Below, in pieces: positions 5,127 to 45,100 of a stretch of 64,000 nucleotides of DNA (position 1 is its first letter; the number at the start of each line of letters is the position of its first letter). The stretch is from Ridgeia piscesae. Taxonomy: Eukaryota; Annelida; Polychaeta; Sabellida; Siboglinidae. The notes below the pieces were generated by a model. That model searched no databases. It saw nothing but the letters and a program-made list of their open reading frames with translations, and was not told where the DNA came from. Location of the stretch: the NCBI GenBank assembly GCA_025642075.2, contig JAODUO010000156.1:186001-250000 (forward strand). Reading direction: 5' to 3'. The position numbers were made by a program, and so were the translations under genes.

Positions 5127-8100
5127 CTGTAAACATATACATAAAGAAGAAATGGGCCAAGTGGCACTGAAGTCTTGTGGACTGTATAGTATTTTGTGAA
5201 AACAGCAGACAATATCGAATAGTGTATAATTTTTCACTTCTAGTTATTTAGAATATAAATTTTCTATCTTTGTCAATTGTATCTTTAACCAGTAGACACC
5301 AGTCACATCAATTTAAAGATAATTTCTTTGCTTATCCATATGAGATGACAAGAAATACAGCCAAATTGCATGAATCGAGTGACACAATTTGTCATTAATG
5401 GTTTTTAGTCAAGATGGAGTTACCTACTTCCAATCCAATGCAGCAGGCAGTATCAATAAAGTGTATGAATTTTCACTTGGTAGTTGTCTAGAATATTAAT
5501 TTTCTATCTTTGTTAATTGTCACTTACAGACAACAATATATATTTAACCAGTAGACACCAAAGTCATAATTTTAAAGATACTTAAACACCAAAATAAACA
5601 CAAACAAGCATATAAAATTGGTAGTTTAAACGAAGATATAGCTTCAAACATTATTATATGCAGTAACTGTCCAGTTTAACAGGGATCTGCTGGGTTAGTG
5701 TTATAGCCCGCTACCAGGCTATGGACCAGCAATTAGCTATGTAGTCGTCCCTATACACTCTACTGGGCTATTTACATAGCCTCTAACAGAGAAATTACTT
5801 ACGCAGCTTCTTTGTATATACAAATCACCAAAGGAGGGCCACGAGAGGAGCTAAAAGTTCAGACAGAAATAGGCAAAAAAAATACATTTTGCTTTTTGGG
5901 CAGGCCCTGAGATGCCCTTACAAGACTAGCGAACTAAAAATTTCTTATCTACAATGAAAATAGCCTCAGATACATTTATGCAAAATTAGAGGAAAAGCTT
6001 CCGAAAAGTGTTTGAATAAAATAGGAAAACTTGTAAATGTACAATTTTTAGTCGAGTTGCCACCCTATTATGTACAGTAGGGAACCTGGAAATAGTTGGT
6101 CGTGTAAAGTGTTTTTGCTGAATCATAGATTATGTGCCCCTGAACTCAAATCTGTGGGTTGGCAATGCGCCATCCTTGGGCAACTCGTGGGAACCACTAA
6201 AATCCAAGATGGCTACTATGATCCTGGTAAATTACAAAATATGCTAGGAATATAATTTTTGTATGTACACGCATGCTTTGGCGTATGGGGAATTATTATG
6301 AACCGTTCATAATAATGTCCGACTGTTCCCGTGACCAAAATGGCCGCCATTTTCACCAACAATAGCCAAAATCGAGCATAATTTTATTGACTTTTGCTAT
6401 ATAAATATGATTTAATTTTTTCCATTCCTATGTTTTACCATATCAGGACTTAAAAGTAACTATTTCAACTGATGATGTGCAAGAGCCATGATTTTGTGCT
6501 TATTCCTACGTTTTAGCATATGGACAAGAACATACTACTGGTATATACTTATACTGCCTTAAATATACGTGAAATAAATACATTTACTGTTTCAACATTA
6601 TGAGGAATTAAAAGTAAGCATTCACACCCAATTAATTTGTTCTTATAAAATAAAAATTGACACCATTTTACAATATCATGGCTACCGGGATGTAACGTGA
6701 ACTAATAAAGAGAATGCTTGTATTAATTGTGCGCAGCTGTGGCCATGGTGTATCTCATAGTGAACCTCCCGTGTGTAGACATAGGTCTCAACAGCTAGAC
6801 TTGAAAACACATTGCTTTTTTGCGCCGAGGAGTATCTGCCCACAGATCCCAAACATCTTGAGAGATAAGCATTTCTGCCTGTGTAGATAGGCCTGGTATG
6901 AAGACATTCAAAGAAGTGTACTGGACATCTGTGAGTGTAGAAATGATGAATAGAGTTATCGGGTTGATGTAAGAATCTGCGGGGAAGCAGATCTTATTAA
7001 GGCTGAAGCCCGATATTGTAAGTTATGCTACGATAGGTTCTGTAAACTTCCTCGTGCCAGTTGTACATGTAGGTGTGTCAAGCCTAGCCATGCTCGCTAA
7101 TCTCTGTGATTACTTTGGTGAGGAGATCGTTGTTTTACACATTGAGGGTTGTGCATCTATTGTTGGTTTCACAGATGGTGTAGGCAAGACAGTGAAGGTG
7201 GTCAAGTATGACGGTGTAGATGATGAGAGTGTAGAAACTGTTGTACGTAGGGTGAAAGCTGAAGCTCTAGCTCTTCATCGTAGCAATGATTATGATTTAA
7301 GCCAGTTCACATTTGAGATGACAGTTGCCAATATATGTCCTACTTTGCTAGCATTAGTTTCTCAATTGGTATCCAATGGAGAATTTAATTAATCAGCAGT
7401 AACCATATCACAGTGCATTCAACAGCACATTTCCAACTGCACAAATCGAACCACTCTTGGTCTTGCTGTGAAGTTACATCATAAAAGGTAGTTCAGAATA
7501 GATAAAGTTGCTCAACGTTGTGATGGAATGGTACACAGGCCCGAAGAAAGTGAACCCCCTCTTATGGTATGTAGGTCTGGCCCACCATTCACTGTGTATG
7601 CACTACAGGGAAGTCTAGAATGTGCCCAGATCGTGGATACTCAATGGCTGAACTCCCTCCTGTATGATTCAAATGCTATCGAATGGGAGGCTATAATGCT
7701 GCTTTGGCGAGAGTGGAATATTCCCCCAAACCAGCCACTATCTACATGTTTGGTCCTCTGGTCGACGCACCACCATCCCACCCTGACACTGTTCTCACGA
7801 CGCTGTCATACTTCGAGAGAACTCTCACTGAACTTGGGATGAAGACCTCAAATCTATCCGCTGACATGCAACTTTACATCGTAGCAACACTTATCAAGTG
7901 GGCCAGTCACGGGAACCGCTTCAAGTCAGTCATTCTTCGACCTGGTGGCATGCATACCCTCATGTCGTTCAATGGCTGCATTGGACACTTGATGAAAGCT
8001 AGTGGTCTTGGTGTACTTGTTGGGGCTGCATTTAGTGACCATGAATGGCAAGGCGTGGGTGAGATCAATGCGTGCCTTTCGTATGGTGACAGCAGCATTG

Positions 8101-11100
8101 CTATACGACTTCCTCAAAGATGGTCTCAAGACATTCGAAGATATCAGTCAGTATCTTGACACAGCTGGAGAACACCCAAACGGTAGGCTGTGGGTTGACT
8201 GCCTCATACGGCCTATGCTCATTGAGCACCAATTCGAATGTGCTGAGTGCGATTGTGATTATCTTTTGCAGCAGCACTGCTACCAGCAAATGCTACCCTA
8301 CTTCTTCGCAGCTGGCCACTGGCAATACACTAGATACATTACATGGCACGTGATGGATCATGAGATGAAGGAGCAGAAATGTAAGGAGAATGGGGAATAA
8401 CCTTTTCTATGAGAACGTAATGGGAATGATTTATCGTTTAAATACCAATGGTTAATAATGTACACTCTGTTAATGCCCAAATGAAACTTGTCATTGCAAA
8501 CAAGTTCTCAGTGTGTACCAATTATATAATTGAGTACTTCTGACGTTATACTTTTAAATTGTACCATTTTGTGTCATTTCCCAAGCTTTTTGTGCTTCTT
8601 ATCCGCTGTAGTAGACTAGTAGTATACATATATATGAAGGTACAACTATTAGCCTTCCTGGAACTCAGTCATGATGAATGTTCAATGCTGAAGAGGAACT
8701 GTAAATAAATCTTCAAGCTATTTTCGGTTGAAATGGCGGCCATCTTGAATTTGTGTCACGTGACCATAGACATACATCATTGAACATTTTTACATAAAAT
8801 TCCTCATATGTTGGTACATTGCATGTATTTATTTCATGTATAATTAAGGCAGTACAACTATATACCAGTACTATGTTCTTGCCCGTATGCTAAAACGTAG
8901 GAATAGGCACAAAACCGTGGCTCTTGCATATTTTTGGTTAAAATGACGGCCATTTTGAATATTAATTGGTTTTCTTGGGCGGGCATCAGTTGAACTAGTT
9001 CTATTTAAGTCCTGATATGGTAAAACATAGGAATGGACAAAATAAAATCATATTTATATTGCTATTGTTGGTGAAAATGACGGCCATTTTGGATTTTGAT
9101 CACGTGAACATAGTCGGACATTATTATACATGGTTCCATTGAATTCCCCATACGCCAAAGCATACGCATGCTTTTCGGCATTGTACATAAAAAAATTATG
9201 TTCCTAGCATGATGTATAAAGATGAACACATTTTGTAATTTACCAGGATCACGGCAGCCATCTTGGATTTTCGTTGTTCCCACAAGTTGCCCAAGGATGG
9301 CGCATCGCCATCCCACGGATTTGAGTTCAGGGACACATAATCTATATGATTCAGCAAAAAAACTTGCAACCATTTCCAGGTTCACAAAATGGCAAATCGA
9401 CTATAAACGACCCTAGGAGCCTTAAAAATGTGTCAATCAAATTTACATTTTTTCTGCATAGTAACATTATCCTAAGAAATGTCTATGCAAAATAAAAAAA
9501 TAAACAGATCTTCAACGGTTTCTGAGATGTGAGAACTATTAGCAGACAGCGCCCAGCGCATGGCTGACACAAAATAATACCTTAAGTCCACTGGACCTCT
9601 TGCCCTAAGGACATTCTGGATTAATTTACTATAATAAGATTTGAATGTATTAATTTGAAGAAAAACAAATTGCATGTTAGGTAAAACGTCCCTTACTGAT
9701 TGGTTGTTTTTGGATCAATTGCAGAACATTTTCATATTACAAATACTCAGTTCAGTTCTCTATGGTATGCCACAAACCATAAACTGACAAGAATCCTTAA
9801 TCAACACTGAAATTTGAAAAATAAAGTTGTTTTCTTGAAAAAAGGTTGTACTTTATCAATGAATGTTTTGCACAAAATGAGGAGGAGAAATAGATAGAAA
9901 TAGTGTGTGTGTGTGTGTGTGTGCGTGTGCGTGTGCGTGTGCATGTGCATGTGCATGCGTGGGTTGGTGCATGGGTGCGTGTGTTAGCATATTAGCATAT
10001 GTACATACACAGTATTACATACAAACTAGCATGTTCATAGTTACTCTCATAGAACTGTTTCTTGCCGTGAGATTTTGCGAATATTTTACAACCAGCTTTG
10101 TCTAACCTGAGCAAGACTAGAGTTCTCAACTGCAGTGATAATGACTGGTGACTGGCCCCGCACGCTGAAACCAAACTCTTCATCACTTGACCTTCGACGC
10201 AGGTTGATACACCTTGGGGCTGTCCACTTGTGGCGGGCAGAGAATATGTTTAGTGGGCCCTAAAACAGTAGTTGGGTGCCTGATTAAAACACAGAAATTA
10301 CAACTTATACAGAGAGGGAGAGAAAGGGAGAGAGAGAGAGAGGGAGAAAGAGGACGGAGATGGAGGGGGACAGAAGGGGGCGGGCGGCAAGCGGGCGGAT
10401 GGACGGATGAAGAGAGAGAGAGAGATGACTACTTGCATAATGATAGCTAGTTGCATACCAGCTCATGAAACAAGTCATCCACTTTGTACTTGGAGAAATC
10501 TGGCAGAATCGGAGTCGCCACTGATCTTGTGAGGGCTGCAACACAGGTGTTTTTGTGAGCTACTTAAGAATGATAATATCCTAATTAATTTCATTAAGAA
10601 CTTACCATAAGTAAGAACCAAATTGTTCATGCAAGTTATAGTATAAAGATCCAACAAAGCTCAATCGGTATTGTATATAAATTAATGAAACTGTTTAGTT
10701 AATGCTATTTTAATGCAAATGTTGTGTTAGTACCAGATGTATTAGGTTAAAACATCTACACTGTCTAAATCGTCAGTGACAGAAGTAAAACAAACCAGAA
10801 TAGTTCAAAACTGTGTCATTATGAGACTACTAGTATATTTGAGGATAAATGAAAGTGAAAGTGTTATATGGGCTCACGCTGTACACTTGGTGCTGGACAC
10901 GGGTCTGTGAAGTCATCCTCATCATCAAATTCTGCAAACTTCTGCAGACACCTGTTGACCACACAAACACATCCACGAGTCTTGTTGCACATAATCATTG
11001 GTAGGAATAAACAGACCTTTGGGTAACTCATTATCAAATAGTTCTTTGATACAATGCTGATGAAAAGCACTAACATGGTTAATATTAATAAAAAAATATC

Positions 11101-12100: not shown

Positions 12101-15100
12101 CATTAAATAGACACCAGCCAACACAGTCAACACTCGGCCATTAAGTGAAATCTGTATTAGGATCCTTCAAGAATAGTTATTTTTTAAATTAAATACTTAT
12201 TATTACATTAGAACCAATATTTTGTAACAAATGTTATGCTAAATACATTAAACATGGTTATCAAGAAACTAGGTTTCTGCTAAGAGTCAGCAATGAAATC
12301 ATGCAGACCTTATTTACACAGATTAGCACCTGTGGGTACTGGGCAGTAAATTGGACACCACCAGCCTGCTTTGTGTGTTAGAGAAGGTCTGGCATAGATA
12401 AGCACGTCCTTTGTCCAAGCCAGGTATCCCAAATGAAACAAATCTCCTTGGGAGTTGTTCACTCAGTCTAGCAAGACAGGGCGGCCTGGTGAATGGTGAT
12501 ACTGGTGTTAAATGAGAACCCAACTTGGCTGTCAGCTAGGTCTGTTATCATTGCCATGATTTTGTAAAAAGGGCAGTCTATGGCGATCTGTGCCACAATA
12601 ATGTTATTTTGTTACCTTATTTCTGACTGTAATGCACTCACTTGTCAGTGATTCAAAAGATTTTTAAGTGCTTGTGTATGCAAGACCAAACCTTTGTAGT
12701 AACTAGACTGTGTCTGAAAAAATTTTTGGTGACCTTATTTACTGTGACTTTTCCTAGGCAAAACTGTTACTTTTTCTGTGACTTCTTTTACTGAGAATTA
12801 ATTTTTGACAGCGCAAAACAACGAAACAATTACATATTCTGAATTTTTTCAACAATTATCAAAATGTTCTGTTACTATAGAATGCCCACTGGCAACGTGT
12901 CATTTACCAAAACGTTATGGATCTGATTAGCACTTAGCACACATAGTTAAACGCACACATGCACGATATCAAGTTGCACGCACACATGCATGCATGCATG
13001 CACAGCATTAGATGCTATACACGCAAAGGGCTATCAGGAAATCCCCCAACTAACAGACACAAACAATGTGCAATTTTTGAGAGATATCATTCGGCCTACA
13101 GCCTGCCACGCATATTTTGCCATATCCTGGCCCGCACCGCGCTAGTCTGGCCCACAGCCTGCCAAGCATATTTTGCCATATCCTGGCCCGCACCGCGCTA
13201 GTCTGGCCCACAGCCTGCCACGCATATTTTACCATATCCTGGCCTGCACCACGCTAGTCTGGCCCACAGCCTGCCACGCATATTTTGCCATATCCTGGCC
13301 TGCACCACGCTAGTCTGGCCCACAGCCTGCCACGCATATTTTACCATATCCTGGCCTGCACCACGCTAGTCTGGCCCACAGCCTGCCACGCATATTTTAC
13401 CATATCCTGGCCTGCACCACGCTAGTCTGGCCCACAGCCTGCCACGCATATTTTGCCATATCCTGGCCCGCACCGCGCTAGTCTGGCCCACAGCCTGCCA
13501 AGCATATTTTGCCATATCCTGGCCCGCACCGCGCTAGTCTGGCCCACAGCCTGCCACGCATATTTTACCATATCCTGGCCTGCACCACGCTAGTCTGGCC
13601 CACAGCCTGCCACGCATATTTTACCATATCCTGGCCCGCACCGCGCTAGTCTGGCTCACAGCCTGCCACGCATATTTTGCCATATCCTGGCCCGCACCGC
13701 ACTAGTCTGGCCCACAGCCTGCCACGCATATTTTGCCATATCCTGGCCCGCACCGCGCTAGTCTGGCCCACAGCCTGCACTGCAACACACACAAAATCCG
13801 CTAAAAGGCCAAAACCCGCCCCATGCAGGGCCTTGAATTAGCTGCACACCACTGACCTATTGTTCATATTCACAATGTGTGTTGTCATTCTCACCTGTCA
13901 TGAGACCTTTTGAGCATGCTCTGTAACGTGTCGATGCGACGCAGCTGCTTGCAGGACTTGTGTAGTCGGAGTGCATCTTCAAGAGCCAGGATGGCACTAC
14001 GCAGATGGCTGCGAACTACACAGAAAACAGAACACATCATTGCAAGAAAACCTTAAAGGAAATAAAAAACACATACTGTTTGCATCAATGTTATAATACA
14101 TGCTGTTAAATAGCTCCATGTCCAAATATATTGGCAAAGAAGCCCCCTGATGTCTGTTGGACTATATAGTGAGTTGGTAATTATGAATGAAATGTATTTT
14201 GATGAATCATAGTCACTCCCTATACAGTTGAAGTTTGTAGACGATACAAGTGTTTAGAAAAATAAAAAGTGATGCAGATAGACAGCATTTACAAGGTGAT
14301 CTTAATAAGTTGACCAAATGATCTGAGAAGTGACAAATGCTGTTTAATTTTGGGAAGTGCAAGTGCCTCCACACACGACATGGGAATGAAGATGCACAAT
14401 ATACAATGGGTGGTACTGTATTAAATACTACCATAAAGGAAAAGGACTTAGAATTAAATATTAGTGCTGATATGAAGGTATCAGAGCGGTGTGGAATTGC
14501 AGCAGCGAAGGGAAACCAAATTCTTGGATTAATTAGGCGAAATATAGTGTACAAGAAAAAAGAACTAATAATACCGCTATACAAAACAACAGATAGGTCT
14601 CATTTAGAATATTGTATACAAGCATGGAGGCCATATCGCAAGAAGGATATTAATATACTAGAAAGAGTAAAAAGGAGAGCCACCAAAATGGTACCAAAAC
14701 TCTGGAATATTAGTTATGAAATGAGTCTAAAAGAATGTGGTTTAACAACACTAGAAACCAGGAGATTGACAGGAGATCAAAAAGTATTTTAAGTATTGAA
14801 TGGGTATGAAAATATTTACAGAAATATCTTTTTCTCGGTTAAGGAAGAGAGAAGGCCTAGAGAACATGGAGTTACATTAACGTGTAGACTAGATATTAGA
14901 AAATTCTCATTTTCACAAAGAACAGTAAATGAATGGAGCCGATTATCAGCTGATTGTGCTAGTAAGTAATGTTAATATATTTAAAAGTAAAATTGACATA
15001 TACCTAAGAAGGGCTGGGTACACTTAGATAGATAGGTTGGACTCTCGACAAGCCAAAGGGCTTCCTAATCCACCTGCCATCTATAGGTGGCAATCTTGTT

Positions 15101-18100: not shown

Positions 18101-21100
18101 ATGCCATAATTTACAAAATGACTATCGTTTACCGATCATATTGCCGAATGGAATGTTCTATTCATATGTAAAATCAACACTTGAATAACGAAGGATAGCA
18201 GACTCCTTTCACAAACAGATGCTCCCTTATCAGAAGCTATGTGCATATTAATAAAATACCCTAAAATAAATAAACCAAACGAAGTACAGACGGTGATCCG
18301 ATCAACAAAATGGCTGCATATCGGCGAAATGAACATGCCGCCGACGGGTCATCTTCTTCGTATCTCAACAACAAAAAGTCGCACAAACAACATAGATGGA
18401 TGATAACAGGGTCTCCGTGATCGCAAACATCGATATCCGACTCGAACTCGTCGAGAAATGATCTCAGTAATATCCGCCAAATGCTGCACGATGTCGGAGG
18501 TTAATTAGACGAACGCACTTCAATATCCTTCCAAATAGACTCATTTAATTCGCAAACGAAAACAATTTTTCACAAGATGGCAACAGCACATGTTTCTGTG
18601 ACCTACATAGAGCTTAGATCAGCAGTTTGAGCTGGCTGGTTAATGTAAAAGAAGGATGTGATCGTGGTAAACGAAAGACCCATGAACTGTGAGTTCACTG
18701 GGCTGTTTTGGATGGTCTGCGTGTACGAGGGGTTGGGCGGTTTTGGACGGTCTGCGCAGTAGAGAGTTAATCTAAGACAATTTAAACTGAAAATAGTCAG
18801 ACAATAATACAAAATAATTTAAATTTTACTGTAACATATGTAGTTAACTTACTGAACATTCGTTGTTCATTGTCTTGATGCCACACATTGCAGAGTGAGC
18901 AGTGTGTTCGACTGGTACCACTCTCCTGGGTGTGGAGGCTAGCAAACTGTTCGGCCAGGATGTCAACAGTCTGTGCTTGGCCAGCGATGGCGAGTGCAGA
19001 ATGGTAGTGTGCCAGTGCGAGGAAGTAGTATGTCTTCACTTCGACCATGTTCAGCCAGGCCCCTGGGATGTAATCCCTCACCACACTTGCCAACATCTGT
19101 GTGTGTGTCTCCTGGTACTCTGTAGACACCTGGGCAACAAATATCACAGTCAGCAAAGGAAAACATCATTTTACATTGTAACATGTATTCTTTACATTGT
19201 AACATGTATTCTTACAAGTGAGGGGAGGGGGAGACGGAGGAAGGGGAGAGAGAGGGAGGGGAAAGGGAAGAAGGGCAGAGGGAGGGAGGGCAGAGGGAGG
19301 GGCAGAAGTGGAGATGGAGAGACAGAGGGAGGAAGGGATGGGGAAAGGTAGGAAGGAGAGAGGAAGGAAGGGGAGAGGGAATAGGAGGGGAGAGGGAAGG
19401 CGGGGCAGAAGGGGAGAGGGATATGGGAGGAATGGGAGAGGGATATGGGAGGAATGGGAGAGGGAGGGGAGGAAGGGGAGAGGGAGGGAGGAAGGCAGAG
19501 GGAGGGGCAGAAGGGGAGAGGGATAGGGGGAGTGAGGGAAAGAGAGAGAGGGAGAGTAGAACTAACCTTGGCCGACTCGTGTGCTAGACTCATGTGCTGC
19601 CGGCGACTTCCTTGTGCTCCAACTAACTGGATGCCCTCGAACATGCACTCCTGGGCCTGGCTCTGTCAATCACACTCTCTTCTGTTAACCCATTAGGCAC
19701 TAGGATTTTATTAAAACATGCCCTCTTGTTCCCAGGATTTCTAGCAATTGTTAAGTGATTTTACATCTATGTGTAGAAAAACATCTACTCATTTTTTTTA
19801 TTACAAGTTGTGTTTATTTTGAAGAGTACTAATTTCTCCACATTTCTGTATACATAGAAATATGATTTAGTCATAAAATGTTGATCACAATTTGCAAAGC
19901 AAATAATAATTTTTTTAAACTTGAAAGTTATTCTACACAGCGACTGACATTTGAAATTGAACCCCTATTCAAAATTGCAGCTATAAATGTTAGCTTTGCA
20001 ACAACGAAAACATTACAAAATACTGACGGTTATTTTTAAAGTTTGAATAAACATTTTAGAAATGGCCGACATAGTGTTATACAGGCATGTATTGATATGT
20101 ATCTGTAATAAAGCCGTTGAATCAATCAAATTGGTTGCAATTGTGTTTATTGACAAACAAAACATTGTGTCTGTTCATGTTGCAAGTTGTTTGAAATGGT
20201 ATAGTGTGTGTGTGTGTTTTATGTGAAATACTGGTCAAAGAAAACAGATTTCTTCTTCGTCTTCTTCTTTTCATCTTCCTGTAATGAAAAAAGAGTCAAA
20301 ATAAATAAACAAGAAACGAGAGAAATATAAAATAATTATGAAAATATAATTGTAAACAATTATGAAACAATTATTGTGTTTTATTATGACAACATAATAA
20401 AAAACACAATAGCTGGTGGCTGAGGTTAGAAGTAACATCAACAGAACAGAACAGCAACACATTCAGAAACAAACTGCCAGGTACACATGTATGTACTTGG
20501 CACTGACACTGACAGCTGTCAGAATTTGACAGAAATTGTATTCCCTAGTTGATATATTTATTTAGGCCTTATTTTATTTCAGGTGTCCAAGTCGGCCATA
20601 TACAGAGAGTTTTACCTGGTGGATCCATGGCAGGCTTGGTCGAAGGGTACAGAGAGTCATACCAGTGTATACCAGCCATAAGATGGAACTTCTGTGCTCT
20701 CAGCGGAGAACAAGATATGGGATAACACTCAGCCCTTGTTGACTGCTGCCCTTACAAATGATCAGTTGATTTGTAAATAAGCAGTTGGATTGATTATGAA
20801 CAAATCAACTGACTCTTGACACCAGCAGATCTTGTTTCATTAGCTTGGGCATATCTGTACCAAGGACTGCAATTCCGACATGGACAGTCATTGTGGGCAG
20901 CGGCCAGGCCAGAGTTCTGACAAAGATGTAATTCACCATTCTCTCTTTCTGTCTGCCATGGGCTGGTGGATCTGCAGGTAAACATACAGCTGTAGTGTCT
21001 TCTGCAGTTCCAATTGCTTGCGTCCTGAACAGAAAACAGCCATGTTGTCAGGGTTCGCTAGGACTTGGCCGGACGTTCTTGCTAGAGCCATGGTTCCATC

Positions 21101-24100
21101 CCTATAAATAAACAGGACATGCTGTAGTGCTAAATATTGACTGTTTGAATTTACTGTTTTTATATGAAAAAAGATCATCCAATCTGCACCTAATAAGCAG
21201 CATATATGTTACAGTGTAATAGTGAACAGTGTCCTTTACTTTGGTGCAGTGTGTTGGAAGTGACAATATCAACAACCAGGACAGAATTAGGCTAGATACA
21301 TTTATCAAGAAAGCAAATGGGACTGTAAGGATGGAACGGGTCATGGATAGAGTACAGAAGTTTTCAGGCAGATGACATACACTCACTAAGATCTTAATTT
21401 GACAGCTGACAGGAGTGACAGATACTGAGTTGCCTTTATTATTGCCCATATTATTGCACAGATAGATAGATGGTGATGCTGCTCCAGCTGCTGTCTTCAT
21501 TGAATAGAGATGTGTGTATGTTTGTGTGGTGATACATATTACATAAACTAAGGTTTGATAACTGATTACATGATCACTTAGTGTTTATGCACTAGAGTTG
21601 ACAGTGCTCAGTCATGCAATTTCCTAATGTTGGTAAGTGTGGTATTGAATACATAATTGGTAAAATAATACTGCGTCTTACAAACATTTCACTCCACTAT
21701 GACATTCCTCTCACAAAATGACAATAGCATTTATCGCTACATTGTTTGTGTCATGTTGTATCTTATATTAAGTGCTTTAATTTATATTATCCAATAAACA
21801 CAAATGTTGGCACCTCAAAATATTAAACGAACAGGAATATCTATGACAATGTATATTGCAGAGATGGAGTAATCGTACTCGTGTACTCATACTCGTACAC
21901 GAGTACTTTTTGAGTACTCGTACTCGAGTACGAAGGAAAGTAATCGTACTCGTACTCGAGTACATTACCAAAGTAATCGTACTCACGATTACTTCTCACG
22001 ATTACATATTTTTCATATGAACAGTTGCAAGCAAATATATTAGACAGATAAAATGGCAATATTAGAAGTAATCTAATAAATGTAATCATAATCAAGGTAT
22101 TAATTTTCTATTACTGTTGAGCATTTCAGTTAAATAAATATTCAGTCAGATTTCCCTAATTAATACCTTCTCTTCCCAGAGAAGCCACATCACCTCACCC
22201 TCCTGTTTAGTACAAAGTACAAGTTATACTGTGACAGTCCCTGGGAAGCACTGCAGGAGATAAGCATCCCCTAACATCTTGCTTTGTAATTTTAGAAGCC
22301 AGGCCATATGCCCCACCTGTACTGTTTGCTTTGTCAGTATGGTGTGAATGACTGGTCATATTTCCAACATCCAGAATCCTGACTGGGTCTGGGTGGTTAG
22401 CTGCTAAATCCCTGTCTAGTATTATGTTTAATTAAGTGCAAACTGTAAACCCGTCTAAATCCACAACTATTCTGTGTTTGTCCCATCCAGACATGGGGTC
22501 AAATACATTGAAATTTTTATTTAAATACAAATATTCTTGAGGGATTACAAATACTTTGTATTTAAATACGAATACATTGAAAAGTATCTCAAATACTTCT
22601 TCATATATTTTTCAAATACTTTTCATTTTGTATTACTATGTAAATATAAGAAAAGCAACACATATATTGAGACATCTAGTTTATAGGCATATTTAGTGTT
22701 TTGCTCATATGATGACAGGCAGACCAGTGCTAGGGAGTATTGTTATTGCTAACTGCATCACAGTGACATCTGACTGAAAGACGTAAAGGCCAAAATATAT
22801 TGTTTGTATGTTAAGCCAGGAGTTCCATGATAATATAATGCCTATGTTGCCCTCAGAAGAGACACTGCTAATCATTGCTAATGTTGTGAGGAAGGCTCAA
22901 CTTCAAAGTCAGCCAAGAAACCAGAATAAACTGGTGCCAAATTGAAGCCTGACTAAAGAACAAAAGGGGATATTGACCTATGGTCACTGTTAGGTATTAA
23001 TCCATCCTCTGGCTCTGAACAATCACAAGTTGTGGTCACTGCAGGGCCATAGGGGAAGCCTGCTGTTAAGTGTCTTCATCAGTAATTAGCAATGTTGGGT
23101 GAAGTTGCAGTGCATTAAGGTAATCAGTTTGGCAGGCATTACATGTGACAGTGAAAAAGAAATGTTGATACTGACAATGTATTTGAAAAAATATTTGAAA
23201 AAGTCAAATACTTTAGGAAAGTATTTAAATACCAATACTTTTAATTCCTAAACATCAAATACAAATACTTAAAACAGTATTTAAATACTTTCAAATACAA
23301 ATGTATTTGACCCCATGTCTGGACCCACCTGATATACTACATAATATTATTTGAATTGGGGATCCATGACATTTTGGTAAAGGATACTTTGGTAATGGAC
23401 ATTTCGGTAATAGACATTTCGATAACAGGACATTTCGGTAACTAGACATTTCGGTAACAATTAAGACATTTCGGTAAAACTACTGAAAATAATCAGAGTC
23501 CAGTCTGCCATATTAGGAGGTAACCTGTTGAGATGTCAGTCAGTTAAACCATTTGTAACTTAGGATGGTCCAGACATGGAACTTAGCTTTCTACCAGTAG
23601 TCAGGCAAGGTGTAAAGTAGTGCTTGCCTCTGAAGGGAACATGGCTTCCAAATAGCAGTGGTGGTGGCTAAAGTGTTCAACCACTACAGCAAATCACTGG
23701 CTAGCAGGACACATTTAAATCCAGACACATAAGGTGAAGCTATACATGTGAACATGGAGCTATCAACAACAACCAGGGGAAAAGCAAAGCTATTGTGGAA
23801 TGGCTATACCAAGCATACAGAGAAAAATGACATGATAAGGTGGCATTGTACATGTCATGCAAGCAAGCTCTGCCCTGCTAGTGCATACACAGACTTGCTA
23901 CCAGCATATCCAGTGTTAAATTTTTTTAAAGAAATATGCCTTTATAGAATATTTATTGGTTTTACCAAAATGCCATGCTACCAAAATGTCTGTTACCAAG
24001 ATGTCCTATTACCAAAATGTCTGTTACCAAAATGTCCTGTTACCGAAATGTCAGTTACCAAAACGTCCATTACCAAAGTGTCCTTTACCGAAATGTCTGG

Positions 24101-27100
24101 ATACCTTGAACTGGATACTCTTTTGAATATGCCCCCCCTGGTTTTGAAGTGTTGTTATTGTAATGTATTTGATCATGTGTATTTGAAATTTGTAAATGCC
24201 TCATATTTGTATTTGATTCAGAAACCATAAATTAAGTTATTAATCCAGCGTTAAATGATTCATCCAATACCTGAGAAAGTCGTCTAATTATTAATAATAA
24301 TAACACCTGGATAGTGGATAGCAGTAATCAGTTAGAACATTAGTGACACAACAACAGAACAAGAATGACACCTAGGGATTCCATGAAAGTCGCCTTTATG
24401 TTAGAAACAGGATATTCATTAAAGTAATCATGAAAGTAATCATGATTACACTGTAAAGTAATCGTACTCGTACTCGAGTATATTATAAAGTAATCGTACT
24501 CGAGTACATTTGTTTTCTGAGTACTCGTACTCATGCATGTTCAAAGTAATCATACTCGTACTCGAGTACATTTGTATTGTACTCACTCCATCTCTGGTAT
24601 ATTGTTAACTGGCAAAATGTCATATTGAGACATCACGCTAATGTGCATGGTGGATCATCTGACTTACTTGCTAAACCATTGGATTAATTTTTTTTGGAAT
24701 TACATTAGTGATTTGCACGACACAATGGTTGAGGGTAGAGAATTCCACTCATTGTAGTGGAGAAGAAACTAGTTCCAAATGTTTACCGAGTGTTTACCCG
24801 AAGATCTAGTGTTGTATTGGATAGAGTGATCTTGTGGGATATCTACAAGTCCACGTTCCATCTAGTATATTATGCTAGTCTGTTAATATTTCTTCTTGTT
24901 TGCTCAGTGTGTCCCCAATATTTCAAGAAACTACCAATAAAGGCAATAATATTGCAAATTTGCAAAAGTGATTTTTTTTATACAGTACATAAGTTATGTC
25001 TCATCATAGGTAATTATTCATCCTTTACTGTAAGCCTGTAACATGTGCTAGTATCAATGTTGTATGAGTATCTGAACTGATACAGCACACAGAATTTGTA
25101 ATTTGTTCTCTCACTGAACAAATAACATGAATGATTGAAAACAACATTCGCAATGCTATTTTTTAATGTTTGAATAATATGTTTACTGAAAAATATAGCA
25201 GTCATGTTGGCACTTTCAGAGCGGTCAACCTGAAAATAGGAACTGCATGCGTAGCTACGAAACTCGAAAGGCAGTACTTTTGAAGTTATTTAGCGAGTGA
25301 TATCAAAGTGCCTATATTATCGTTCATGCGCGCGGATTGACTATGACGTCTATAATCTGGCTTGTATTCAGCTGTTTTTTTTTATTGACATGTAGCTTTC
25401 CCTTATTTTTATGCCTCTGTTCACGCTAACGTGATATAAACCATTCAAAGTAGGATAAAATAAAACAAATAATCATGAATAACAATATCGGACGGCCTAA
25501 CTCGCTTGGACCTAGTTAGCGGCTCCATGATCCCGTGTACATACCTTCTAGAACGTTAACTGTGGTGGACGTTTACGAACAATATCAGTATGTACATAAG
25601 TCATCTCGACAGACATCGCAATGTGTCTAATGGTACAAGATTCAAATAATTTAGATACAGAAGACTTGATAATATTTACTAACCTTCTTGCGCGCTTTGA
25701 TGACTTGGCTACGGCGACGGAAGGATTCGACCGGTAACCCGTTTCGACGACTATCGTTGGTGATTAAATATCGCGCTAATATCGTTTGCACAGCTCCATT
25801 CTTGAAAACTCGACGTCGCCGACGTTTCTGCGGATCTTGACCCAGTATATACGGTGAGAAACATCCTATTCGAAGCAACGTTCTTCGAACGGATGTCCTT
25901 CTTCGAAGTTCACGTATCTTACAACATTGTGTTTACAACGGCGATAGCATTGACGCACGCAATCGGACACGTGACTTTAAGGCCGGTTCTGCGTGCTGAG
26001 TGGTCAGACCACGCACGGTCAGACAACAGGAAGAGGCGCATCATGGACGCCTCTATGAAGCCGATGATTTCAGTAAAATTATCCACTTTGGAATTATTTT
26101 ACTAATAAACCACTGACGTTAAAAATGTGATTACCGTTCAGAATAGTTGCTTTGTATTAGCTCTTTCACATGCATAGCACTTAATATTTCCCTTTTGGTT
26201 CCCTTTAATTCAAATGAAATACACAGACTCCACTTTTACACCATCCAGCATTAAAGGGATCAAGTCCTTTAATCATCTGTCACACTAAGTTACACATGTT
26301 TCAACAAGAACTACAATCAAAGAAATTTTTACTAATACTAAGTTGTTCAAGGAGAATGCCTTCAGTTTCAAAACGAGTTTACAATGGAGATCATCCCCAA
26401 TAACATTTCTTGTGTTAGTTGCTTTTTGGGAGTTTTTTTCTGGGAGGGCTTATTTCTAGGGGGCTTATTTTTGGGAGGGCTTTTCTGAGAGGGCTTATTT
26501 CAGTACCTGAACACACAGGACACACAAAATGTTTTTGTCAAAAATCAAGTCATATGTAAGACACTGGTGGCACAGCTGTAGATACACAGATGTGTTGTAT
26601 TCTATTGTATGCACAGGTGTGTTGTATTTTATTATATGCACAGGTGTATTGTATTCTTGTGTATGCACAGGTGTGTTGTATTCTATTGTATGCACAGGTG
26701 TATTGTATTCTATTGTATGCACAGGTGTGTTGTATTGTATTCTATTGTATGCACATATGTACATCGGTAGGCTGTGTGCCTATTATATTGTACACATGTG
26801 TATTGTATTCTATTGTATGCACAGGTGTATTGTATGCACAGGTGTATTGTAATATATTGTATGCACATGTATATTGTATTGCATTCTATTGTATTCTATT
26901 GTATAAGTGTCAACCTACCAGTATGAGTTGTATGCACATAAGTGTCAACCTACCAGCATGAGTTGTATGAGCATAAGTGTCAACCTACCAGCATAAGTTG
27001 TATGAGCATAAGTGTCAACCTACCAGCATGAGTTGTATGAGCATAAGTGTCAACCTACCAGCATGAGCTGTATTAGCATAAGTGTCAACCTACCAGCATG

Positions 27101-30100
27101 AGTTGTATGAGCATAAGTGTCAACCTACCAGCATGAGTTGTAAGAGCATAAGTGTCAACCTACAGCATGAGTTGTATGAGCATAAGTGTCAACCTACCAG
27201 CATGAGTTGTATGAGCATAAGTGTCAACCTACCAGCATGAGTTGTATGAGCATAAGTGTCAACCTACCAGCATGAGTTGTATGAGCATAAGTGTCAACCT
27301 ACCAGCATGAGCTGTATTAGCATAAGTGTCAACCTACCAGCATGAGTTGTATGAGCATAAGTGTCAACCTACCAGCATGAGTTGTAAGAGCATAAGTGTC
27401 AACCTACAGCATGAGTTGTATGAGCACAAGTGTCAACCTACCAGCATGAGTTGTATGAGCATAAGTGTCAACCTACCAGCATGGGTTGTATGAGCATAAG
27501 TGTCAACCTACCAGCATGAGTTGTATTAGCATAAGTGTCAACCTACCAGCATGAGTTGTATTAGCATAAGTGTCAACCTACCAGCATGAGTTGTATGAGC
27601 ATAAGTGTCAACCTACCAGCATGAGTTGTATGAGCATAAGTGTCAACCTACCAGCATGAGTTGTATTAGCATAAGTGTCAACCTACCAGCATGAGTTGTA
27701 TGAGCATAAGTGTCAACCTACCAGCATGAGTTGTAAGAGCATAAGTGTCAACCTACAGCATGAGTTGTATGAGCACAAGTGTCAACCTACCAGCATGAGT
27801 TGTATGAGCATAAGTGTCAACCTACCAGCATGGGTTGTATGAGCATAAGTGTCAACCTACCAGCATGAGTTGTATTAGCATAAGTGTCAACCTACCAGCA
27901 TGAGTTGTATTAGCATAAGTGTCAACCTACCAGCATGAGTTGTATGAGCATAAGTGTCAACCTACCAGCATGAGTTGTATGAGCATAAGTGTCAACCTAC
28001 CAGCATGAGTTGTATGAGCATAAGTGTCAACCTACCAGCATGAGCTGTATGAGCATAGTGAGTGTAGGTGGCTGCATGTCCACACTGGGGGCATGGCTGA
28101 AGTTCTCACTGAGGTACTTGAATGCACCAGCAGCTTCCTGAAAACTCCTCCTTGCGGCGTCCGTCCCGTCTCTACAACTGCGGTCCTGTTGCGATGGAAA
28201 CAGTCATATCACTCATTATCATCACTCTGTCATCCATCAGTCTTTCAACAAATCTCAGATTTATTATTTATATTATAACTGTAATTAAATTATCTTTATA
28301 TTTTTAATACACCACCAATTCATAGATCTGAAGCCAGTGGTTCACGAACATACATGAACATAGAAACACAGCATCAAGGAAGTGTTGCCTCAAAGTAAAC
28401 ATATTAACATAGATATCATGTCAGCTGAGTTGACCCAGCTTTCTATAGGAAAAACATACATCAAGACTGGGTATTACTGGCACTAATACATCTACAAGCT
28501 CCCACCTGTCTCGCTGCTATTTGTGTCTGCAGTGCTCCAATATTGAAAAGGATGCTGCCCTTCTCAAAGCCAACTGTCTTTTGGGCACTGGGTACTCCGG
28601 TGAGGGAGTCAAACCTGAGTGACAGTCAAAGACACCAGTTACAATGACGATGTAGCCACTGTCATCAGAATGGATAAAACTCACTGAAATGTCCCTAGTC
28701 ATTCCAATGTTGCTGCTCATTATATTTCAGAAGAATCAAACTGACATAAATGGTTTATTTAGTTTCAGTTAAGACAGTGAAGACTCGGTTAACATGAAGT
28801 AACAACGGTAACCAAGGTCCACCTCTATATGCAAGGCTATTAATACTTTGGCAAGTTACCAGATTTAACAAAGTAATTTTGTATGAAATGTTTGAATGAT
28901 TATGTTACTGGACATCTGCGCCTATTACCTAATACATCAAACAAAGTGTTTGTGTTGGCCTAAAGTAACTGAAGACAGAGTCAGTCCAAATGCAGACTGT
29001 CTGGTCCTAGTTTTTCATTTGATCAAATATTATGACATATATTAAAGCTGCTCCCTCCACTCGTTTGCTAATCGCCTAACCGGTTCGTTTATGACCAGAT
29101 GTGTAAGGTGTTAATAGTTTAACTAATATGCATAGTCAGTTAATTTTTTAAATGCATACTTGTCATTTTTTTAATCGTAAAAATCGCCATTACACCGGGT
29201 ATAACTGGTGAAACAATCAGCAGCTGCCGATGTCCTGTGCTTTTTGGGTCATGTGCTTTATGCGAGATCGACCTACTACTGCACAATAACAAATCGCACG
29301 TGCTTTTGCGCGTCATTCTTCTATGAAGGTGCGCATTACATGCATTCACACAGTTAGCAACAAGAGCGAGTAGTCGGGGGCTAATTCACTCTTGTGAACG
29401 TCTACTTGACGTGGAATCTCTAACTTGTAAAATTATAATAATTATAAGTTTGACAGTGTCACTGACAAGGCAAGCCAGTTTGAGTTGACAGTCACCATCG
29501 ATATCGCTTGGCATCACTCAGCCAGACACAACCTGTGTTAATATGTACCAGTATTGTATTTGATTATGCATCATCTTGCTAATAAACTTAGTAATTGCGA
29601 AAGTACATATCCAGAGAGAATATATGATGTGAGGGACGAAATGATAAATAAAATTGACAAGGGGGACTGGTAGTAGCTCTTGTTGGTCGGGCAAGTAGCG
29701 TTGTATTTGTAGGGGGAGCATCCGTTATCTCGTGTAACAGAACCTCAAATGGAGAATTGTTGATTTCCATTATATTTTATGCAAACTAATTTAGATTTTT
29801 ATGACAACGATGATTGATGGTGATGGATTTATTCAATAAAAAATAAACATGAAAATAGGTGTACACTATATCATGCAAGTATTACATATAACATTATTGT
29901 ACTTGTTTCCATTGTAGTCAATGATGCCTGGCTGTAGTCTATGTACCTGGTACCTTTCAACTCGCACGAGCCAGCTGTTTTCATATATTTATCAAAATTT
30001 TCATCACAGCACTGAGCAGTATATGAATGCATAATATATTCGAATTATAATATTGCTACAGGCCACACTTCAATACAAGCGTGAGACAAGGCAGAGGAGA

Positions 30101-36100: not shown

Positions 36101-39100
36101 CTTTAATACATAATATATTGAAGTTGGCAAACATTTTTTATTGTATTTAGTTACTTTATTAAGCTCATAACAATGTTTTCAGTTTGACACTTTCCATTGG
36201 GCAATATGTTCAATTGGTAAACAAAACATCTTGTTTCATGACAAGTTTTATTGGCATTACAACTGCGTGCTCTGTCTGTAACTACAATGTCCTTTGTTGT
36301 TCTTATGTCCTAGACATCTCTTCCTGATATAAATGACTATGCTGGCTTATTCCAGGTGTAGGAGCAGACACTCCTTAAGTTAATAACAGTGGCTTACTCC
36401 AGGTGTAGGAGCGGACACTCCTTAAGTTAAAACAATGGCTTACTCCAGGTGTAGGAGCGGACACTCCTTAAGTTAACAACAATGGCTTACTCCAGGTGTA
36501 GGAGCGGACACTCCTTAAGTTAACAACAATGGCTTACTCCAGGTGTAGGAGCGGACACTCCTTAAGTTAACAACAATGGCTTACTCCAGGTGTAGGAGCG
36601 GACACTCCTTAAGTTAACAACAATGGCTTACTCCAGGTGTAGGAGCGGACACTCCTTAAGTTAACAACAATGGCTTACTCCAGGTGTAGGAGCGGACACT
36701 CCTTAAGTTAACAACAATGGCTTACTCCAGGTGTAGGAGCGGACACTCCTTAAGTTAACAACAATGGCTTACTCCAGGTGTAGGAGCAGACACTCCTTAA
36801 TAACACTGCCACAGCAGGTGCTACGAGACAGTCAAAGTAGGCCAGCAAAGTTGAACTGTTATCTCTAGAAGTAGACTCACCACTCCAACTGGATGTAAGT
36901 GCGGGAGTCTGGGGGGAAGAACCGCTTGTCAATGAAGTACAGCTGACAGTAGTAGTTGACCAACAGCTCCACTCCTGTCTCTGTACGAACTGGAGTCTGT
37001 ACTGCCTGACAACACAGTACAGTGTCAGCATTGTGTTCAGTTGGAATGTGTCAGCATTCAGTGGTACGGTTGAACCATTTTAGTATATAGTACAGTTGAT
37101 CATGTCAGTGCACAGTGCAGTCAGTTGGTATACAGAACAGTTGGATCCTGTTGTTAGTGCATAGTACAATTGGGTAATTTCTGCTCAAAGTACGGTGGAT
37201 CATACAATACAGTTTGGTCATGTCAGCATATAATACAATTGGATCATTCCAGCAAACAGTACAGCTGCATAATGTCAGCACACAGTACAGAAGGATAATG
37301 TAACTTATGTAAGCATCATATACATACATTAATACTTCTCATAGCAACTTACTGGTTCTCACGTTAGGTGCAGCTAAGCTGATCAACATAAACAATATTT
37401 ATGTATCTGACCTGGTATCTGGAAGATAAGAATGAAACTATTGTTGTGATTGGACGAACCTGGCGTAGGTCAGTGATCTGTTGCAGTGCTTCGGTGTAGC
37501 CCTGACTGTTCTCATGGTAGTGCTCCTTAATATACTCCTAGAAAGACACCATAAGTCATGACAGAGAACTTGGTTAGGAATTTTTTTTTTATTACTTTTA
37601 TTGTTTATTTGCATTTTTCCGGGAAGCTGAGATACTTTTTTAATACCACAGCCACTGTCGAAATTGTATTTCTGTGATGGTGTCTGTATTGTTGTATTCT
37701 TTTAGACATGGTATAAACATTGACTAATTTTGTTTATGTTTCTTTAGACATCGTGTGTTCATGTTCACTTACCGGGTAGACATTTTACAGACTCTGTGTA
37801 CTGTATATTCATGTTTGTCTAGACTTTTTACAGACACCGTGTATTGTATAGTGATGTTCTGTTAGACATTTTTCCTACAGAAATGTTCACAGATGTTGCT
37901 GCAGATGTTTACAGAATGTTAATTTTACTTTAGATATTTTACAGACATTGGGCATTATAATATCATGTTTGACTTAATATTTTCAGACACAGTTTAATGA
38001 ATTTGTACAGGTTTCTATGACCTGTTGACAACACAACCCTCTCAGAGAGCGTACTGCATTCTGGCAGGCCGGGGACCAAGGCCAGGAACTACCTCTGACA
38101 CATCACATGCAAGTTATCATAATCAAACTCATTATTACTTCACAATACCTATCAATTGTGAAAACAGTGCAAATTATTAACACACGTCTGACTCACATTC
38201 CAGTTCCAAGACGAAGCCCTTGAGTTCAAGGAATCCCAATACAATTATCCATTCTGTGATTCAACCATTCACATAACTCACTGAACAGTATTATGTAATT
38301 AGATAATTATGTAAAATTACATCCCAAATTCACCATAACTTGCTGGCAAGTGAAACTTTTATTATTGGATAAGCTGACATTTAGAGTTTCACAAGAATGT
38401 GTCGAGATAGATGAGACTGGTGTAATCAGCAGTGTCACCTGGTGTGTGAGGAAGTCATTGTGACACAGATGCAGACGTTAGGGCAGCTGCATGCCATCCA
38501 CTCACCCTGAACACAGGCTTCATGTCCACATCCTTTGTCTCCTTCAGTCCAAGAGGGATCATGGGCACATTCTTGATGGCACTGGGAACACACACAAACA
38601 TGTGACAGACCCACACACTACATAACCACTGTATGTGTCCAAACACTGTTTTTGAGTATCCCAAAAAGTACAAACAAATTCTATACTGGCCAGCTGTTAT
38701 TTTGTGTGTCGTAATTTATACATTCTGTAATGCAGTACCTATATATAATTATTTGGACACTTTCTTGGCCAAAGTTCAGTTTAAAAAAGGGCAAACTGAA
38801 AATGTCGTGGTTTTTGAGTCATTGAAGGCCATAGGATACATAGGAACAATCCAATCAAACATAATTTGTTCATGCATAGTGACAGTGCCCTAATATATGT
38901 CTGTGCCAAATTAGAAAAATAGATCCCAAAAGGTTTTTGAAATATGGGCGCTAACAGCGGATGGTGCACAGCTCATGGTGCATGCAGACTGGTGCTATAA
39001 CAGAAAATCTATATTTTTAGAATTAAAATATGTATTTATAAGTAACATACCTGGCTCCGTCGCTTCACAAAGTGCAATAGACTTGACCGTGCCCAAGTTG

Positions 39101-42100: not shown

Positions 42101-45100
42101 GTGTTAATCTCCGAGGTTCGGCCGGACCTCAGCCTCGTCTCCGTTCTATTCGGAGGAATGTCATCGGTTTTCCGCCCGGGCCTGTCGGCGTAAGTCAATA
42201 GACATGGACTGCCGGGTATTTGCTCGGATTCTCTTTTGGGAATCCAACTGGCGGGACTATGTTTTGTCCGGCCAGTTCCATCAAACGCCTAGGTCGTACT
42301 AGGCCTCTGGGAGCACAACAGGGCCAATTATTCGCGCCCCCAACGACGGTTGAAACGTCGCTAATCGTGTGTTGATAATATCAGCTGGTCGCGAAGATGG
42401 TTGAGGAATATCTTCAAACCTGTACTATTGGTCACGGTCTTGGACCATCTCCGGGGATGGCACTGGAGAAAACCCAAGAAAGCTGCCGCGAGATATGCTA
42501 CATGTCTGTAGGCTAGCCCGCTTGTGGCTGCGCATCTAATAGCGCGGGTTGTAGCGATGTTATATGTGTCAGGCGCCTGCGTTTCTGAAACGGAGTGGCG
42601 TTTATACTATTCCATTCCATACTTAATCAGTCCACTGTGACCAAGTGTCGTACTTGTTGTCGATTGTAATACCATGACAAGAGACACCTGAGTCTTGTGC
42701 AGACGGTGGCGTGTTCGCGAGTCGTCGCCATTACAAACTGAAATGGCGAAGTCGAAAAACGGCTAATAATAGAAAAATACAACTGAAAATTGGTCTGTAA
42801 ACAGCCCATTATATTGCAGAGGTGAAAAGAAAAACAATAAACCGTAATTTCATTAAAACAAATTATGATATCAGCTCACAAAACTGATAAATACGGAGCT
42901 ACGCAAATGCAAGACTTAAACAATGGCGGCACCAAGTAAGAAGAGAAGAGACTCAGTGATTGGATGGAGTGGTGGGAGCTGGGAGGTAATGTTTTTCATT
43001 TTATGAATTATGGCGAGCAACTTGGGCTAAGTCTATGTTAGGCAATAAATTTGGTGCTTTTCCCATGGCACAGGTTTTGTATATAAGCAAGGGTAAATGG
43101 ATATGGTTTTAGAGTGTCACTTAGTGAAGAGTTCCTACTTGAAGTCCTGACAGATGCTGACTGGGCTGTTCAGATTTGCAAGTTCTTCTTTCAACAACTG
43201 AAGATTTGAGTTGACACATCCAAGTTCGTGGGCCACTGTCTCTCGCAGTTTTTTGTTGCTGGTGGCCCTGAAAACACAACCCATTTTCAATTAACCTGCA
43301 CAGCACAGCAGTTGTTTCACTGGTGTATCATTTCTTTTTGGGAGGATATAGAGAGAAACAGAATGTGTTCTGGTAATTACTGTGATACTGTACTAGAAAT
43401 TAAGAATGGACATGTTAACCACATGTATTCTCATCAATTACACTTACAGTCGTTTACTCGGTGTGCATTTTTCTATTTAAATTACTAGTTTTTGTATCCT
43501 AATGCGAAACCCACAATTAGTACAAACAATACACCCATAATTCGTTGGCTAGAGACCAGTGGAGTTACAAAGTTGTCTGCCTGTCTGCAACGTTAGCATA
43601 AACAAGGGTTATAAAGTTGTCTGCCTGTCTGCAACGTTAGCATAAACAAGAGTTATAAAGTTGTCTGCCTGTCTGCAACGTTAGCATAAACAAGGGTTAT
43701 AAAGTTGTCTGCCTGTCTGCAACGTTAGCATAAACAAGAGTTATAAAGTTGTCTGCCTGTCTGCAACGTTAGCATAAACAAGAGTTATAAAGTTGTCTGC
43801 CTGTCTGCAACGTTAGCATAAACAAGAGTTATAAAGTTATCTGCCTGTCTGCAACGTTAGCATAAACAAGAGTTATAAAGTTGTCTGCCTGTCTGCAACG
43901 TTAGCATAAACAAGAGTTATAAAGTTGTCTGCCTGTCTGCAATGTTAGCATAAACAAACACACATGCAGTGGCACGAACACTTTGTTAAGACCAGAAAAC
44001 AGTCTTTCAAGACTGTTTTACTGGGAGCACTTTCAAGTTAGACTCCTACTGCAGTATATAAAATACTGCAGCATTTAATATAAATTAAGATTCATGCAGT
44101 TCAATTTTTTTTATAAAATCACGAAAATAAGAACGCTTCCTCACACACCACCTCTGGAATTTTCGCTTCTTTGTTTCCTCGAGTGTGAGGTAATATACCA
44201 TAGACGTTAGCATCAGGTTGAGGCTGTCCATGTTATTCTGTGGTTGTCACACAGTTCCTTGATTAATGACAACCAATCAACATATGTTGGATGACAGCTA
44301 TGGAAATGCTTCAGCAAGAGTTGTTTATTTTCGATTGAATGCCAAAAACAAAATATGCATGGATTATGTACAGATAAATCGACGGAATTTGATGACAATC
44401 AGCATCTCATCATCGTCATTTCTCAACTTGGACTTAGAAGTTGAATTCACGTCTGCTACACCTTTATCAGTGTGATCAGTGACAGTAGTTGTTTCATGAA
44501 GGATACTGCAGTTTGTGAATTCAGATCATATAAGTTACATTACCCATCATCTGTCTATTGTTGACAGAACGACTAAAACAGACGACGTTTTGACGTCCCC
44601 AAAATAACGAAGTGAGCTACAAAGATGAAGTAATGTCTTGGACTTGGTTGGACTTAGTTTTCAGTCGATGTTAGCCAAATCCAAGAAAAATTACAAAATG
44701 CAGACAACTGTGATTTATTCGCTAAACACATGTATATTTAGGAATTGTTGTTAACCATATACAAAATTACAAAGAATATTTCTTTTTTTTGAACGAACAA
44801 ACCTCAGTGAATGGAAATAGACCGTTCATTAATAGATGCTGAACACTGTTTGCACTTCAGACTGTTGTTCGACTTGTCTATTCGGCTATTGTCAATAATA
44901 ATAGCCATAATAATAGCTTTATTCCCATGCTCTATGCAACATACAAGTATGTGTTACACTGCTTCTCTAGTTGTGTTTGAAACAATTGTTACCATTTATA
45001 GAATGAAGTATCAACCATCAATTGAATTTACAGTAATTTAATACAGGGAAATGATTGAACCAGTCAGTAGGTCTGTATATTTCATGTTACTGTTAATAAT

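Follow-up and report, generated by a model that had tools for sequence, protein, structure and literature searches.

Exon 8 of a rhophilin gene in the tubeworm Ridgeia piscesae runs into a minisatellite that spans its own splice junction. In the window, i.e., the whole stretch of 64,000 nucleotides analysed here (contig JAODUO010000156.1, positions 186,001 to 250,000), a 35-bp unit composed of the exon end and the beginning of intron 8 is repeated 33 times in tandem on the minus strand (26903..28057), and every copy carries the donor motif GTAGGT. With a probability of roughly 0.7, the array is a splice-junction minisatellite which likely arose as a slippage product, and splicing is predicted to take place mainly at the first donor because every later donor would add a stop codon.

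The rhophilin gene spans roughly positions 63042 to 4797 of the window, on the minus strand, and is intact apart from the array. Its spliced exon model comprises the domains HR1, BRO1 and PDZ (the last barely above the cut-off) and agrees exon by exon with protein P0001 predicted for R. piscesae. Exon 8 (28036..28185; 150 bp, BRO1 domain), defined by splice model, frame and homology, ends with ...LTMLIQLML followed by GTAGGTTGACACT, and its last 22 bases form copy 1 of the array. The first donor GTAGGT (28030..28035) lies in phase 0. According to the splice model, intron 8 (19663..28035; 8373 bp, phase 0) contains the array as its first 1.1 kb, and exon 9 (19567..19662; acceptor GATTGACAG) starts with SQAQECMFEG.... 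All these features are on the minus strand. In P0001, LML is joined to SQAQEC as splicing from the first donor would give.

Tandem Repeats Finder (TRF) placed the array at 26903-28057 with period 35, 33.1 copies and 96% matches. Each unit consists of the last 22 bases of exon 8 plus the first 13 bases of intron 8, and across the 22 shared bases the copy within the exon shows one mismatch to the array consensus. GTAGGT is present in 33/33 copies. Copies are spaced by 35 bp in 29 of 32 intervals and by 34 bp in the remaining three; the G at position -1 is missing from these 34-bp copies (donors at 27756, 27407 and 27163) and retained in the other 30. Ten distinct copy types were found, with a mean pairwise identity of 0.96. 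The unit was seen at this locus only: nine of nine matches to a 168-bp genome query and 13 of 13 matches to a 38-base genome pattern fell within the array, which rules out a dispersed satellite or transposon-borne repeat. An exact 26-base pattern of the unit was absent from the prokaryote and viral collections, and Rfam gave no match at the gathering threshold for positions 26000-29000.

The frame stays open via donor 1 only, which alone leads into exon 9 free of a stop. With the remaining 32 of 33 donors the protein would end in ...LIQLMLVG-stop, two residues beyond position 303 of P0001 (679 residues). In other animals, a premature stop upstream of further exons is the usual target of nonsense-mediated decay, and a message spliced from a later donor, with Val-Gly and a stop ahead of seven downstream exons, would likely be such a target. 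The initial annotation had described about 33 tandem 35-bp copies with GTAGGT in every copy checked, had named rhophilin and its exon 8, had derived the unit from the exon end plus donor, and had foreseen that every donor except the first would bring an immediate stop; all of these points were borne out, with the qualification that three of the 33 donors lack the G at -1.

The same annotation had proposed a comparison with related species which, run at the protein level, provided the strongest new result: repeats at the same junction in Lamellibrachia satsuma. The predicted L. satsuma protein P0002 contains five QPPTLAMLIQLML in a row, linked by VSC and one further residue and followed by SQAQEC, and thus four additional in-frame repeats of 17 residues (corresponding to 51 bp) at the rhophilin exon 8/9 junction. 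VSC starts exactly at the position of the Ridgeia intron start. We infer a 51-bp donor-spanning unit with about 42 exon bases (deduced from the protein) and a donor of the form GTRAGTTGY encoding VSC. Judged from these sequences, both tubeworm genera have amplified this exon end, and their units differ: that of Ridgeia is out of frame, that of L. satsuma in frame. The junction is covered by 152 of 168 related proteins, and P0002 alone has an insertion at this point; gaps in the vicinity occur in a further 19, each at least 9 residues beyond the junction. A profile search for proteins over the junction yielded 48 proteins with no further junction insertion. The sole match in a fragment search for other tubeworm proteins over the junction was P0121, which represents exon 7 and stops short of the junction. 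It derives from a close relative and lies on a public contig of 5,321 bases that could reach the array.

Structure models of P0001 and P0002 were made without templates. In P0001 a confident helix (residues 292-316) encloses the junction. The corresponding helix of P0002 (414-438) is formed by the last copy, residues 341-410 being of low confidence (block means 37-52). As the exon end recurs in every copy, the downstream helix could always be supplied by the final one, and the added in-frame copies could be looped out.

Regarding the history of the two arrays, a single ancestral donor-spanning array, since remodelled to differing units in Ridgeia and in Lamellibrachia, is somewhat doubtful when set against two origins; it would be compatible with slippage as the mechanism. 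That one exon end is amplified in both genera is what such an ancestor would predict, but the unit ends differ (22 exon bases in 35 bp versus about 42 in 51 bp), and the split is old, as the excerpted genome paper dates the separation of L. luymesi from the other three sequenced tubeworms to about 65 million years ago (PMC9921365).

The second genome also bears on the reliability of the array itself. Short-read assemblies tend to shorten such arrays, which weighs against inflation by assembly. Two 349-bp blocks of the Ridgeia array (ten units each) are identical at 347/349 positions, which may reflect real turnover or an assembly effect. Because of these blocks, and because the published assembly was built from Illumina short reads with SOAPdenovo and GapCloser (PMC9921365, as excerpted), the number of 33 copies is an assembly estimate and is soft. 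The same two facts would fit an array that was short in the animal and was inflated or misjoined in short-read gap closing. That most of the 33 copies have this source is nevertheless very unlikely, given the 10 distinct copy types and the repeats at the same junction in the independent genome of L. satsuma.

Features of the junction are compatible with an origin by slippage. The end of exon 8 contains GCTCAT twice, and the sequences at the unit ends are alike (CACTATGCTC in the exon, CACTTATGCTC where copies meet, CACTTATACAA beyond the final copy); both may make the rhophilin junction slippage-prone. Slippage or unequal exchange through a splice junction would create a duplication that leaves the exon directly followed by an intact donor and would therefore be nearly silent. 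Since the intact site stays beside the exon, little harm would be done, and the array would be free to lengthen into the intron; acceptors would present the mirror case. If a unit has a length divisible by three and contains no stop, as predicted for L. satsuma rhophilin (51 bp) and for a GLD2-like polymerase gene of Ridgeia (42 bp; see below), later donors would lengthen the protein. Their use in Ridgeia rhophilin would add Val-Gly and a stop.

Arrays across splice junctions were also found on other genes of the genome. An exon of OXCT1 (PDB 3dlx, 2e-13, residues 1-31 of 31) abuts a donor array with a 29-bp unit in 15 copies, an exon of the GLD2-like polymerase (5jnb, 3.6e-10, residues 3-29 of 31) abuts one with a 42-bp, in-frame unit, and an exon of PRP16 (7a5p, 1.3e-16, residues 2-46 of 46) abuts one with a 31-bp unit. 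In all three the homology reaches the last codon before the donor or comes within two residues of it, and copies 1 and 2 have 11, 39 and 17 exon-side bases in common, respectively, with at most two mismatches. PRP16 is itself a splicing helicase. The mirror arrangement was found in one of 20 stretches with PDZ exons (L021, G000:C1306:171000-180999). There, beside a PDZ profile match, a 79-bp unit comprises the acceptor together with 39 bases from the start of the PDZ exon, with 25 acceptor copies at 6444-8573 of the locus; the two joined exons score 5.5e-15 against Pfam PDZ. A degraded copy of more of the PDZ exon is present within this array, near 7920-8030. As the OXCT1, GLD2-like and PRP16 donors and the PDZ acceptor all carry such arrays, junction-spanning arrays are not peculiar to rhophilin. 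The initial annotation had treated the rhophilin array as a one-off with a possible role; because arrays of the same kind sit on other genes, a slippage by-product is the simpler reading.

The three donor arrays come from a wider set. Among the matches listed for perfect tandem donors, about 24 arrays (13 + 11) were grouped by hand, and 23 were read after one 8-base simple repeat had been dropped. An exon with clear homology was found at three of these (L040, L050 and L053, i.e., OXCT1, GLD2-like and PRP16), and a fourth (L060), likewise open in frame up to its first donor, showed weak PH domain homology (E 0.002). Seven (L042, L045, L047, L054, L055, L057, L059) have an open frame up to the donor, for which two Pfam searches, plus one PDB search for L059, found no homology. 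When open frames were tested against resampled sequence in 21 of the 23 arrays (L048 and L049 were excluded because the array fills the stretch), five gave p < 0.05 where about one was expected, and all five belong to the seven without homology. The three arrays with homology fail this test when it is taken alone (0.083, 0.333 and 0.183). Two of the arrays, L056 and L061, located on different contigs (C10, C21), share an almost identical 47-bp unit that contains a donor, and for this reason some tandem-donor arrays are regarded, on their sequence, as dispersed repeats rather than exon-derived.

Several results weigh against a mere slippage product that is spliced mainly at its first donor. No convincing exon was found at 12 of the 23 arrays read (L041, L043, L044, L046, L048, L049, L051, L052, L056, L058, L061, L062). 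Across the genome, tandem donors show little or no excess: three perfect tandem donors gave 2098 matches versus 1953 for the reversed pattern with AGGTAAGT, and 6788 versus 4346 with AGGTGAGT, so that any excess is modest in these raw totals, in which matches are not merged into arrays. With respect to donor choice, the L. satsuma gene model (P0002) takes the last donor where that of Ridgeia (P0001) takes the first, both being predictions. Finally, the 10 variable columns of the Ridgeia array all belong to the 22 exon-derived columns, the 13 intron-derived columns being constant (post hoc values of 0.0035 when counted by columns and 0.0096 if events are taken as independent), which hints at constraint on the donors and speaks against pure neglect. 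The invariance of GTAGGT was rejected as proof of selection in its own right, the chance that six given columns stay invariant being 0.11; the constant motif alone is weak evidence because 25 of the 35 columns never vary.

Donor strength was scored with a human matrix. On this scale the array donor reaches 8.1, compared with 5.4-10.7 for ten other donors of the gene, and 30 of the 33 array donors equal the first. In the 58-kb gene, 56 sites reach the score of the array donor, 30 of them inside the array. Donors of this strength, the identical immediate stop that 32 of them would cause, and the invariant intron-derived half of the unit would all suit a regulated cassette in which a share of transcripts uses donors 2-33, meets the stop and decays, array length setting rhophilin output. 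Such a role is nonetheless unlikely. Arrays on unrelated genes, with other units and frames, indicate a general process, and a poison function would not be shared by both genera because the unit that L. satsuma has at this junction keeps the frame and is free of stops.

An even smaller likelihood, making it highly improbable, attaches to the idea that the array is retained for binding U1 at many sites, for instance to guard against premature cleavage and polyadenylation within the 8.4-kb intron. By sequence, 33 good U1 sites do stand at the start of a long intron. The donor 9-mers in the array are, however, predicted to be mostly paired (unpaired probability 0.0001-0.0042 versus a median of 0.011 for all 9-mers of the stretch). 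Structural protection of decoy donors, as envisaged in the initial annotation, found no support and was rejected, predicted local folding being alike for the first donor and the other 32.

The closest known system is the minisatellite of human IFI6. Turri et al. 1995 (Nucleic Acids Research (NAR) 23:1854) reportedly described this minisatellite as supplying several splice donors. In the excerpt of PMC4526556, two downstream repeat units of IFI6 (6-16, G1P3) serve as donors and three mRNA species result; the likeness to Ridgeia, as far as that excerpt goes, is a tandem array at an exon end in which each unit acts as or contains a donor. Two features of the IFI6 type were found in Ridgeia rhophilin, namely a usable-looking donor in each unit and an array that begins in the exon whose donor it copies. 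It differs in its out-of-frame 35-bp unit, which leads to a stop for 32 of the 33 predicted donors, and in having 33 copies. In-frame units are present in the P0002 prediction (17-residue repeats), which brings the L. satsuma version closer to IFI6 than the Ridgeia version.

Rogers (1989) and Venkatesh (1999) are said to have described how introns are gained when exon sequence with AGGT is duplicated in tandem. There too, tandem duplication multiplies splice-site sequence, but a duplicated exon piece becomes a new intron, whereas in Ridgeia a pre-existing intron has merely been lengthened. Intron gain was rejected here: P0152 and P0137, from contigs of other animals, run into the intron at the same place (...LMLVS...), and the splice model requires no new intron. 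A further likeness, an expanded array at an exon-intron boundary, is offered by human segmentally duplicated genes, in which, according to the excerpted report, expanded minisatellites with a mean unit of 30 bp alter splicing (PMC2812944). The arrays in that excerpt average about four repeats and create new introns or lengthened exons in young paralogues; the Ridgeia array consists of many copies of a pre-existing donor in an annelid gene that is old in animals. Searches of the open-licence literature, none of which combined rhophilin with repeats, turned up no description of arrays of this type for tubeworms or for rhophilin.

Arrays lie close to exons elsewhere in the rhophilin gene as well. 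All six arrays of at least 300 bp touch an exon or are located at most 295 bp away, a proximity reached in none of 20,000 random placements (with a cut-off picked post hoc). The other five are at 13093-13778, 19221-19556, 36343-36800, 43562-43957 and 49988-50997. Their units contain splice-like motifs, among them GCTAACGTTGCAG in the 44-bp unit and GTAAG in the 47- and 55-bp units. In the 20 PDZ-exon stretches, such an array was present within 300 bp at seven of 24 PDZ profile matches (3.8 expected, P 0.043), so that an enrichment of PDZ exons for nearby arrays is suggestive only. Coding sequence recurring at least twice within 4 kb was found for two of 40 exon entries and none of the 24 profile matches; the two entries are rhophilin exon 8 itself and the PDZ exon, which was added by hand after its array had been noticed.

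A broader reading is put forward tentatively, at less than even odds. Vestimentiferan genes might harbour a self-renewing class of splice-site minisatellites, in which recurrent junction duplication, protected by the splice site that comes with each copy, would turn some junctions into adjustable cassettes: repeat peptides if in frame (L. satsuma rhophilin, GLD2-like) and poison stops if not (Ridgeia rhophilin, OXCT1, PRP16). If true, such arrays would be natural minigenes for the question of how the spliceosome chooses among many identical donors. They show a route by which minisatellites can enter coding exons without breaking them. With one exon end amplified in two genera, it can be asked whether drift, a check by decay or alternative protein repeats prevail, and array length likely varies between animals, which would make dose and effect comparable in nature.

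The numbering of exon 8 holds if positions 63042-62926, which match the N-terminus of the L. satsuma protein, are exon 1. The P0001 model places its first exon at 53460-53305, which may be a misprediction because of that match. The Ridgeia gene prediction combined homology, ab initio models and RNA reads, as stated in the excerpt of PMC9921365. P0164, from a contig of 10,399 bases, agrees in a by-eye comparison with the exon 6 region (about 36880-37420) if TGA is read as Trp, and looks like tubeworm DNA translated under another code.

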